From NCBI GenBank assembly GCA_025965475.1, contig JAOPWV010000187.1, positions 1 to 34,845 of the forward strand: 34,845 nt of DNA, in the 5' to 3' direction. Position numbers and translations under genes: made by a program. The stretch comes from Frankiales bacterium. Its GTDB lineage: Bacteria; Actinomycetota; Actinomycetes; Mycobacteriales; SCTD01. The notes beneath the pieces are model-generated. The model worked only from the letters and a program-made list of their open reading frames with translations, searched no databases and was not told where the DNA came from. Positions 20,450 through 22,941 of the stretch are shown here, piece after piece (position 1 is the first letter of the stretch; every line of letters begins with the position of its first letter).

Positions 20450-21535
20450 GTGACCTCCCTTCCCCTCGTGTTCGACGCGCCCAAGCGCGGCCTGCCGCCC
20501 CGCCATCTGGCCGATCTCGATGCCGCCGGGCGACGCGCGGCGGTCGCCGAGCTGGGGGAGAAGCCGTTCCGGGCCGACCAGCTGGCCCGCCACTGGTTCG
20601 CCGGGCACACGCCCGAGCAGATGACCGACCTGCCTGGCCCGCTGCGCGCGCGGCTGACCGAGGCGCTGCTGCCGCCGCTGCTCGTACCCGTGCGCGACGT
20701 GGACTGCGACGACGGAGCGACCCGCAAGACGCTCTGGCGTGGCCACGACGGCACCCTCGTCGAGTCGGTACTCATGCGCTACACCGACCGGACGACCGTC
20801 TGCGTCAGCAGTCAGGCCGGCTGCGGCATGGCGTGCCCGTTCTGCGCGACCGGCCAGGCCGGGCTCACGCGCAACCTGTCGACGGCCGAGATCGTCGAGC
20901 AGGTCGTGGCCGCCAACGCGGCGGAGGCGGCGACCGGCGGACGGGTCAGCAACGTGGTCTTCATGGGCATGGGCGAGCCGCTCGCCAACTACAACCGGGT
21001 CGTCGCCGCCGTACGGCGCATGATCGAGCCCGCGCCGCACGGGCTCGGCATGAGCCAGCGCAACATCGTCGTGTCGACCGTCGGCCTCGTTCCCGCGATC
21101 AAGAAGCTCACCGAGGAGGACCTGCAGGTCACCCTCGCGCTGTCCCTGCACGCGCCGGACGACGAACTGCGCAACACCCTCGTCCCTGTCAACACGCGCT
21201 GGCCGGTCAGCGAGGTGCTGTCGGCGGCGTTCGCGTACACCAAGCGCACCGGCCGGCGGTTGTCGATCGAGTACGCCATGATCAAGGACGTCAACGACCA
21301 GCCGTTCCGGGCCGACCTGCTCGCCAAGCGGCTCAAGGGCAAGCTCGTGCACGTCAACCTGATCCCGCTCAACCCGACGCCGGGCAGTGAGTGGGACGCG
21401 AGCCCGAAGCCGGTCGAGCGTGAGTTCGTCCGCCGGCTGCGCGCCGCGGGCATCGCCACGACCGTCCGGGACACCCGCGGCCGCGAGATCGCGGGCGCCT
21501 GCGGGCAGCTGTCCGCCGCTGAGGCCTCCGTCTAG
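20450..21535 (+). CDS. rlmN: Dual-specificity 23S rRNA A2503 / tRNA A37 C2-methyltransferase RlmN
   Basis: Radical SAM enzyme that methylates C2 of A2503 in 23S rRNA and, in some bacteria, A37 of tRNAs. In the 361-residue protein, CGMACPFC gives the iron-sulfur triad Cys125, Cys129 and Cys132, and the methyl-carrying Cys351 is in AGACGQL near the end. [29 protein letters not shown] and [12 protein letters not shown] are further RlmN signatures. The N-terminal helical domain ([13 protein letters not shown]) contacts RNA. The GTG start is preceded by a possible leaderless promoter. Confidence 0.96.
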
Positions 21536-21550
21536 CTGGGCGCTCCCGCT

Positions 21551-21594
21551 TGCGTCCGGCTGATCGTGGCTCCTGAGCCACAGTTGCCCGGACG
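21551..21594 (+). repeat. 44-base nested-hairpin repeat, copy 1
   Basis: Identical over 44 bases to copy 2. The order is GCGTCCGG, CTGATC, the inner palindrome GTGGCTC-CT-GAGCCAC, AGTTGC, then CCGGACG. The last outer pair is lost because T follows at 21595. It starts 15 bases after the rlmN stop. Confidence 0.85.
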
Positions 21595-21623
21595 TACGGC
21601 GGCGGGTCCGACCACGCCGACGC

Positions 21624-21667
21624 CTGCGTCCGGCTGATCGTGGCTCCTGAGCCACAGTTGCCCGGAC
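21624..21667 (+). repeat. 44-base nested-hairpin repeat, copy 2
   Basis: Exact copy 73 bases downstream of copy 1. Here the outer arms are perfect (GCGTCCGG at 21625-21632 with CCGGACGC at 21661-21668). The 197-base rlmN-dxr gap is made up mainly of these two copies plus the dxr promoter region. Confidence 0.85.
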
Positions 21668-21720
21668 GCAACGGGCTGGAGCCGGTCCACGCTCAGCGGG
21701 ACGCCGGGCGCCCGACCTGG

Positions 21721-21726
21721 GACACT
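21721..21726 (+). promoter_or_regulatory. Putative -10 box (GACACT) for dxr
   Basis: GACACT ends 6 bases before the GTG at 21733, again the leaderless spacing. The G-run between them could also act as a weak ribosome site. Confidence 0.35.
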
Positions 21727-21732
21727 GGGGGG

Positions 21733-22941
21733 GTGAGCGTCCGCGAAGTCGTGCTGCTGGGGGCCACCGGCTCCATCGGCACACAGGCCGTCGACGTCGT
21801 ACGCCGCAATCCCGACCGGCTGCGGGTCGTCGGGCTGGCGGCCGGCGGCGACCGGGTCGAGTTGCTCGCGCAACAGGCCCTCGAACTGGGCGTGGACGTC
21901 GTGGCGGTCGCCAAGGCGACGGTGGCCCAGGACCTCCAGCTGGCCTTCTACGCCGAGGCGCAGGCCCGCGGCTACCGGTCCGGCGACTTCGCCATCCCCA
22001 AGATCCTGGCCGGCCCGGACGCGGCGACCGAGCTCGCAGGCTGGCCGTGCGACGTCGTCCTCAACGGCATGACCGGCTCGGTCGGACTCGCCCCGACGCT
22101 GGCCGCCCTGAACGCCGGGCGCACCCTGGCGCTCGCCAACAAGGAGTCGCTGGTCGCCGGCGGCCCCCTCGTGCAGGCCGCCATGCAGCGACCCGACCAG
22201 ATCGTCCCGGTCGACTCCGAGCACTCCGCTCTGGCCCAGTGCCTGCGCGGCGGGCGGCCCGACGAGGTGCGCCGGCTGGTCCTGACCGCCAGCGGCGGCC
22301 CGTTCCGGGGCCGTACCGACCTGTCCGACGTCACGCCCGAACAGGCGCTGGCCCACCCGACCTGGGACATGGGCCCGGTCGTCACGGTCAACTCGGCGAC
22401 GCTGGTCAACAAGGGGCTCGAGGTCATCGAGGCCCACCTGCTGTTCGCCCTGCCGTACGACGCGATCGACGTGGTCGTCCACCCGCAGTCGATCGTGCAC
22501 TCGATGGTCGAGTTCCACGACGGCTCCACGCTGGCCCAGGTCAGCCCGCCCGACATGCGGCTGCCGATCGCCCTCGGCCTGGCCTGGCCGGACCGCCTCC
22601 CGAACGAGGGCTACGGCATGGACTGGTCGACCGCGTCGACCTGGGAGTTCCAGCCGCTGGACGACACGGCGTTCCCCGCTGTGGGGCTCGCCCGCGAGGC
22701 TGGCAGGCGCGGCGGCACCGCCCCGGCGGCGTTCAACGCGGCGAACGAGGAGTGCGTGGCGGCTTTCCTCGACGGCCGCCTGCCGTTCCCGGGGATCGTG
22801 GACACCGTGGCCCGCGTCGTCGGGGAGCACACGTTCAGGGAACGTCCGACACTTGCCGAGGTGTTGGAGACAGAAGAACAGGCCCGCGCATCCGCGCGGC
22901 GTCTCGTGGGGGAGTCCTCGGAGGTCGGTACGTGGCGCTAG
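21733..22941 (+). CDS. dxr: 1-deoxy-D-xylulose 5-phosphate reductoisomerase
   Basis: Second enzyme of the MEP isoprenoid pathway, converting DXP to MEP with NADPH; target of fosmidomycin. The 402-residue protein has the NADPH fold [31 protein letters not shown], the metal/substrate motif [49 protein letters not shown], and [13 protein letters not shown] chose the GTG at 21733 because the conserved strand begins five residues later; the frame to 21640 runs back into repeat copy 2. It overlaps the downstream protease gene by 10 bases, and ispG follows, so two MEP enzymes are co-transcribed. Confidence 0.96.

Follow-up and report, generated by a model that had tools for sequence, protein, structure and literature searches.

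Palindromes scattered between bacterial genes are well described in the REP/RAYT system (REPtrons). There the palindromes are dispersed in intergenic regions with a bias towards gene ends, several species-specific families exist, and the gene for the Y1 HUH transposase is flanked by its cognate repeats. Another link between a gene and a DNA site is found in the Vsr-like and EDxHD homing endonucleases, where the nuclease gene lies beside its own target. The RAYT transposase is the one well-known REP partner, and Di Nocera 2013 (PMC3733652) gives no assigned partner for the CGTC repeats. The CGTC-tagged REPs are described there as hairpins of 20–40 bp with an unpaired CGTC tag, forming mainly head-to-head dimers, with no dedicated transposase known; that text also mentions untagged REP-like families in M. 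tuberculosis and does not contain the word Actinobacteria. Palindromic sites are further known as operators. As reported in PMC7319586, the promoter of Streptococcus agalactiae AbiEi contains two 23-bp inverted repeats, separated by 3 bp, to which the protein binds, and Rv2827c binds two sets of 23-bp inverted repeats with 13-bp gaps.

Here we analyse a repeat pair from a Frankiales bacterium (GenBank assembly GCA_025965475.1). The window, that is, the whole stretch of DNA analysed, comprises 34,845 nucleotides of contig JAOPWV010000187.1. An earlier note on this DNA had drawn attention to two nested-hairpin repeats between rlmN and dxr and had considered a REP/MITE-type element or a structured transcription end.

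Results

Anatomy of the repeat pair

The pair and its neighbours are located in the window as follows.
20450..21535, + strand: rlmN, whose 3′ end precedes the repeat pair; homologues in the family are 77–92% identical
21550..21597, + strand: unit 1 (48 bp), half-site 21550-21572, centre CT 21573-21574, inverted half-site 21575-21597
21598..21623: spacer, 26 bp, by eye with no recognisable likeness to the spacers of other pairs
21624..21671, + strand: unit 2 (48 bp), half-site 21624-21646, centre CT 21647-21648, inverted half-site 21649-21671
21733..22941, + strand: dxr, the downstream neighbour

Unit 2 is a direct repeat of unit 1, 74 bp on. The 44-base copies first noticed lie at 21552-21595 and 21626-21669, hence 74 and not 73 bases apart from start to start. 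They had been called identical and are nearly so: 43 of 44 bases agree, copy 1 ending in CCGGACGT and copy 2 in CCGGACGC. The arms were described correctly, the outer as GCGTCCGG/CCGGACGC and the inner as GTGGCTC-CT-GAGCCAC. With the help of the genome-wide family the symmetric unit could be lengthened to 48 bp, and over this length the two window units differ at 3 of 48 positions. The same-genus genome G002 has two called genes between rlmN and dxr, and genome G003 has 859 nt there (G and L numbers are our labels for genomes and loci).

A dispersed family of 48-bp units

We searched the whole genome (G000; 215 contigs, 3.89 Mb) with a gapless pattern of outer and inner arms at up to three mismatches, which hence selects a fixed length. 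The pattern has 43 matches and the reversed control pattern none at the same tolerance, so the family is not due to chance. The many scattered copies anticipated for a REP-like element are thus present, and the local tandem duplication that had been envisaged for the case of only two copies is ruled out by 43 dispersed units at 31 sites. A few of the 43 units may be double-counted by the assembly: the members of L099/L100 and of L092/L096 have flank or spacer in common and are situated at contig ends or close to them, so that each couple may represent a single place. No gapped unit was obtained by blastn with gaps allowed on the stretches around the units, and none of the viral contigs searched has the exact unit pattern.

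Each half-site consists of TTGCGTCCGG, a variable six-base stretch (mostly STGATC) and GTGGSTC; two central bases separate it from its inverted counterpart, which gives 23 + 2 + 23 bp. Of 33 exact occurrences of the inner palindrome GTGGSTC-NN-GASCCAC in the genome, 32 belong to units; the remaining one is part of a truncated unit adjoining the L094 pair. At one mismatch the number rises to 55, versus 38 for the control. All 12 adjacent pairs are direct, with start-to-start spacings of 73 bp (2 pairs), 74 bp (8) and 75 bp (2). Our weak orientation rule calls the second L090 unit reversed, and in the same orientation it differs from the first at only 3 of 48 positions. Several pairs combine similar units with dissimilar spacers, which also requires local copying or conversion. 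As origin of the pairs a simple 74-bp duplication including the spacer is weak overall, with a median spacer-flank identity of 0.54 compared with 0.42 in mismatched controls; it is clear for L094 and likely for L090, which has 12 common bases at the left edge.

The arms are conserved as sequence

Between copies the arms differ at 0.046 per site when the terminal bases are left out and at 0.086 with them, compared with 0.42 for the pair of variable 6-bp stretches and 0.65 for the flanks. This sharp constraint acts on the sequence and not on a stem. Paired cells make up 93.4% of 714, which equals the shuffled mean, so the arms show no covariation in a test where never-varying base pairs are silent; at columns 21/28, 13 rows are mismatched and a single one is compensated. 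The two central bases (columns 24-25 in an alignment of the 48-bp units) read RG or CY in all but one of the 43 units. In these 42 units exactly one half carries a C beside the centre, while reshuffled halves reach at most 34 of 43, and this asymmetry is a requirement in an otherwise symmetric site. The unit data fit half-sites that would be recognised independently in double-stranded DNA; an RNA terminator and a single-strand hairpin substrate are both disfavoured by the arm data. Nor is there support for a structured transcription end, because the arm changes are uncompensated. In Rfam no family scored above its gathering score for the repeats; there were matches far below only.

Genomic placement and absence from relatives

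Using gene calls from a codon-usage script, not an annotation pipeline, we could place 26 sites; the 5 further sites lie at contig ends. Sixteen of the 26 are located between convergent genes, ten between co-directional genes and none between divergent genes. Control gaps of at least 80 bp in 1.54 Mb of G002 (n = 500) are distributed as 62 convergent, 276 co-directional and 162 divergent. One unit, that of L099, runs into a low-scoring frame at the end of a contig.

The earlier note had regarded the occurrence of the repeat in relatives as informative, and 60 relatives, three of the same genus among them, have no unit. Four of the 60 show one match each with three mismatches that is unlike the units, and one relative has a control match. 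The unit pattern is likewise absent, at up to three mismatches, from 101 rlmN loci of other bacteria. A 4-mismatch match 3′ of the G002 rlmN gene (L139:1320) was rejected as chance; relatives have an antisense gene there. At L093 the orthologous G002 gap measures about 25 bp versus 225 bp with two units in the Frankiales genome, and at L098 it measures about 30 bp versus about 1.36 kb. By eye, the flanks of the units show no target-site duplication, and no empty site at base resolution was obtained. At three places (window 21536-21732, L102 and L110) the Frankiales genome is without two to four genes that are called in G002 between the same neighbours.

An AbiEi-like/DUF559-like gene is bracketed by units

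The extra 1.36 kb at L098 contain an intact gene with units on both sides.
L098:1002-1049: 3′ unit, overlapping the last codons of the gene
L098:1036-2040 (G000:C193), - strand: open reading frame of the candidate cognate gene, 334 codons
L098:2062-2182: 5′ unit pair before the gene start, two units 73 bp apart

The N-terminal part of the protein matches AbiEi models (PADLOC, 1.1e-10). For the C-terminal part the DUF559 match has an E-value of 0.0011 and, at 19.2 bits, stays below the Pfam cut-off of 20.6; a PF04480 search of the Frankiales genome gave no match and no NCBIfam model matches the protein. A profile of nine such proteins matches PDB 3hrl, an endonuclease-like structure (7.4e-11), and PvuRts1I (1.5e-5), and D238, E249, D251 and G252, the D..ExDG residues, are invariant in the nine aligned rows. 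From these matches we infer an AbiEi-like winged-helix domain followed by a DUF559/Vsr-like nuclease-like domain of predicted activity. The earlier note had named a transposase gene as possible support for a REP-like element; an associated gene exists, and instead of a known transposase it encodes this AbiEi-like/DUF559-like protein.

No AbiEii toxin gene was recognised adjoining the gene. Its neighbours are a pyridine nucleotide oxidoreductase gene and a gene for a protein without a Pfam match at 0.01, and in G002 the orthologues of both lie side by side, about 30 bp apart. The Frankiales genome contains a further homologue (G000:C69:5238-6125), with one in-frame TGA. Next to the 5′ unit pair of the gene there is a 17-bp tandem array (L098:2190-2265) with four exact copies of CCGGATGCAAGCGTG (starts 2190, 2207, 2224 and 2241) and a fifth altered copy; the array resembles half of the outer arm.

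Homologues are bracketed by palindromes more often than control genes

Homologues of the protein are present in 24 of 24 genomes of the bacterial family at E ≤ 1e-6. The search gave 136 matches, some of which are pieces of one gene, and returned 30 loci, 28 of them scorable. As controls we used 510 genes of similar length, all from G002. A flank-to-flank similarity score of at least 25 is reached by 14 of 28 loci versus 8 of 510 control genes (p 6e-15), and matched-arm palindromes on both sides, the strict rule, are found at 8 of 28 versus 3 of 510 (p 3e-9). Seven of the tested loci had been inspected before the test, among them the Frankiales gene itself (L316) and L342, both of which were first met through their palindromes; without these two the values are 12 of 26 by score (p 1e-12) and 8 of 26 by the strict rule (p 1.5e-9). 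Another seven genes (three in G002, two in L229, L312, and L313, whose 3′ boundary was set by hand) were added by hand, several after their palindromes had been seen, and the p-values rest on the 30 search-returned loci without them. Including them there are 37 test genes, of which L332 and L335 have too little flank; among the 35 scorable genes 18 pass by score and 12 by the strict rule.

The strict rule misses L316 and L342, which are both bracketed by eye, and by this rule 20 of the 28 homologues are without matched palindromes. The excess over control genes is clear, though most homologues are unbracketed by the strict rule. Palindromes were looked for and not found beside L319, L340 and L341, where DUF559 scores above the Pfam cut-off. 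L336 has similar flanks which are not palindromic.

The bracketing arms vary from gene to gene. In a tree of 34 rows, from which same-gene duplicates, L311, L339 and the G002 genes on C11 and C17 were left out, five genes with GCGTCC-type arms fall inside one seven-member clade (support 97/93), so related arms go with one protein clade. This is the clade of the Frankiales protein, and its other two genes, L323 and L325, are not bracketed by units.

Other arms in related genomes

The arrangement recurs in relatives with other arms. G002 has at least four unrelated palindrome families, each of near-fixed length (A 56, B 58, C 59-64 and D 57 bp), and families B and D have pairs 73-74 bp apart. 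At the G002 locus L173 a homologue is bracketed by family-B units, a single unit on the 3′ side and a 74-bp pair on the 5′ side, which is the anatomy of the Frankiales gene with other arms. Family C, with TGATCAACGGCGAG arms, and family D, with TGATCGGCGTGCGC arms and 74-bp pairs, both consist of dispersed palindromes, and no cognate gene was located for either in G002. We rejected 74 bp as a universal period, since the spacing is 85 in G001, 83 in G003, 77 and others in G023, and 55 and 66 in G005.

G001 carries seven exact units which have the outer arms TTGCGTCCGG of the Frankiales units and a different centre. Exact units with these arms occur once each in G019 and G021 and in none of 20 other genomes, so that besides the Frankiales genome only G001 has more than one. 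The same outer arms also flank the G001 homologue, which is 46% identical to the Frankiales protein.

The arms CGTCCTGC..GCAGGACG were read beside the genes in G008, G021 and G023 and then searched in 24 genomes. There are 31 matches in G008, 20 in G023, 16 in G021 and 11 in G005, and each of the remaining 20 genomes has 0-6. The units beside the genes are part of these totals, 2 of 16 in G021 and 4 of 20 in G023; in G008 the matches were counted only. In G021 a length of 43 is shared by 15 of the 16 matches. The reversed control gave 8 matches in G008, 7 in G023, 5 in G022 and 1-3 in seven more genomes, and in G008 and G023 it probably matches the spacers of tandem units. In G005 (57% complete) no gene with these arms was identified. 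Arms taken from gene flanks thus predicted dispersed copies in three of three genomes (G008, G021 and G023).

Among plasmids no homologue of the Frankiales protein was found, and a search with the L173 protein gave three records, two from Tsukamurella and one from Nonomuraea. One record of Tsukamurella tyrosinosolvens has two similar stretches of about 78 bp on either side of a gene whose annotation reads AbiEi family antitoxin; the downstream stretch is found at three places in this record, presumably including itself and the upstream copy. L039 of Smaragdicoccus has a flank match of 23 bp only, and at L347 of Nonomuraea no palindromes were seen. MT837139.1, a faecal contig filed as phage (unverified), encodes a homologue with 36% identity to the G001 protein between the palindromes TCGGTGATGCA..TGCATCACCGA. 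Neither this protein nor that of Tsukamurella tyrosinosolvens has a Pfam match at 0.01.

Discussion

The distribution of the units is REP-like: they are dispersed intergenic palindromes, placed in convergent and co-directional gaps with a bias for gene ends, several species-specific families exist, and the associated gene is flanked by its repeats. To this extent the REP part of the earlier reading stands; the units are not a classical REP linked to RAYT. In contrast to REPtrons the associated gene is AbiEi-like/DUF559-like and not a Y1 HUH transposase, the unit has 48 bp (REPs have 20-40) and appears to be read as duplex half-sites, all 12 dimers are direct at 73-75 bp where REP dimers are mostly inverted, and the covariation does not exceed that of shuffles, unlike in a constrained hairpin. 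With the CGTC-tagged REPs the units share the absence of a known dedicated transposase, and their arms contain CGTC; they are, however, neither tagged hairpins of 20-40 bp nor mainly head-to-head dimers. As to a MITE of a known insertion sequence, for which terminal repeats in common with an autonomous element and a target-site duplication would be expected, the units bracket one gene, and by eye their flanks show no target-site duplication.

In size and symmetry the unit is like the AbiE operators. These are also composed of two inverted 23-bp half-sites, 23+3+23 and 23+13+23 in the published cases and 23+2+23 in our 43 units, tandem sets lie upstream of the gene as for Rv2827c, and the N-terminal domain is of the AbiEi type. 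The AbiE type IV toxin–antitoxin systems differ from our case, where the protein has a nuclease-like C-terminal part, no adjoining AbiEii toxin gene was recognised, and copies of the site are dispersed genome-wide. With Vsr-like and EDxHD homing endonucleases our gene shares the predicted nuclease superfamily and the position beside a candidate target; it differs from them in that it is bracketed by whole sites and in that the sites, not the gene, have multiplied in this genome.

We consider it rather probable that the units are REP-like repeats with a sequence-specific nuclease as their cognate protein, and that they are duplex binding sites spread by cutting and repair. The units would be double-stranded sites of two-fold symmetry (23 + 2 + 23 bp) for one cognate protein, whose AbiEi-type N-terminal domain would bind them. 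The unit pair upstream of the gene probably serves to autoregulate it, as in AbiEi operators. The nuclease domain could then cut at or near the units, and repair would copy units to other places. The dispersed units would be non-autonomous offspring, and the partnership would be like that of REP and RAYT with an unrelated enzyme. Spreading is the step for which we argue least firmly; upkeep of the sites as roadblocks or operators may operate instead.

The latter possibility can be extended to a complete explanation, in which the units are operators or roadblocks of an AbiEi-like regulator, selected at gene ends as a regulon or as a two-way stop for transcription, and the nuclease domain has no role in movement. 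Size and symmetry of the unit match AbiEi operators, a unit pair lies upstream of the gene, the arms are far better conserved than the neighbouring bases, and 16 of 26 sites are convergent versus 62 of 500 gaps with 0 of 26 divergent versus 162 of 500. The avoidance of divergent, that is, promoter-bearing gaps is nevertheless odd for operators, another unit is located at the 3′ end of the gene, and three species of the same genus have no units. We therefore regard a pure regulator as unlikely.

The gene could also be a guest inserted among repeats which another mobiliser has spread, as insertion sequences land in REPs. Many homologues are indeed unbracketed by the strict rule and families C and D of G002 are without a located gene. 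A chance guest does not agree with different arms beside different genes, with related arms in one protein clade (97/93) and with an arm prediction that succeeded in three of three genomes, and we judge this explanation quite improbable. That the units are RNA hairpins acting as two-way terminators for convergent genes is suggested by the position of the long inverted repeats downstream of stop codons, in most cases in convergent gaps; it is highly improbable in view of the many uncompensated stem changes without covariation, the conservation of sequence and not of structure alone, and the Rfam result. Classical REP/BIME spread by RAYT shares dispersed palindromes and a 3′-end bias with the REPs described in PMC3733652, and can practically be dismissed since PF01797 (RAYT/Y1 transposase) is found in 0 of 24 family genomes versus 5 of 14 controls and the 48-bp units form direct dimers only and have no hairpin constraint.

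Taken with the likely role of a cognate nuclease, the data point to an undescribed kind of repeat-spreading system. Among the top-ranked open-access full texts, no paper ties DUF559 or AbiEi to palindromes or repeats. More tentatively, and with somewhat more doubt than confidence, we propose a new class of mobile repeats in Actinomycetota, in which antitoxin-type winged-helix proteins with a Vsr-like nuclease domain would multiply their own duplex operators, palindromes of about 47–62 bp with lineage-specific arms, by cut-and-repair; many genes annotated as DUF559 or AbiEi in these bacteria would then be repeat mobilisers and not antitoxins.

If this is true, REPs would have a second, unrelated partner which reads duplex DNA, and the REP strategy would have arisen more than once. 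AbiEi-like and DUF559 genes which are now called antitoxin or unknown in the databases would obtain a role, and the protein together with its 48-bp site constitutes a directly testable pair.
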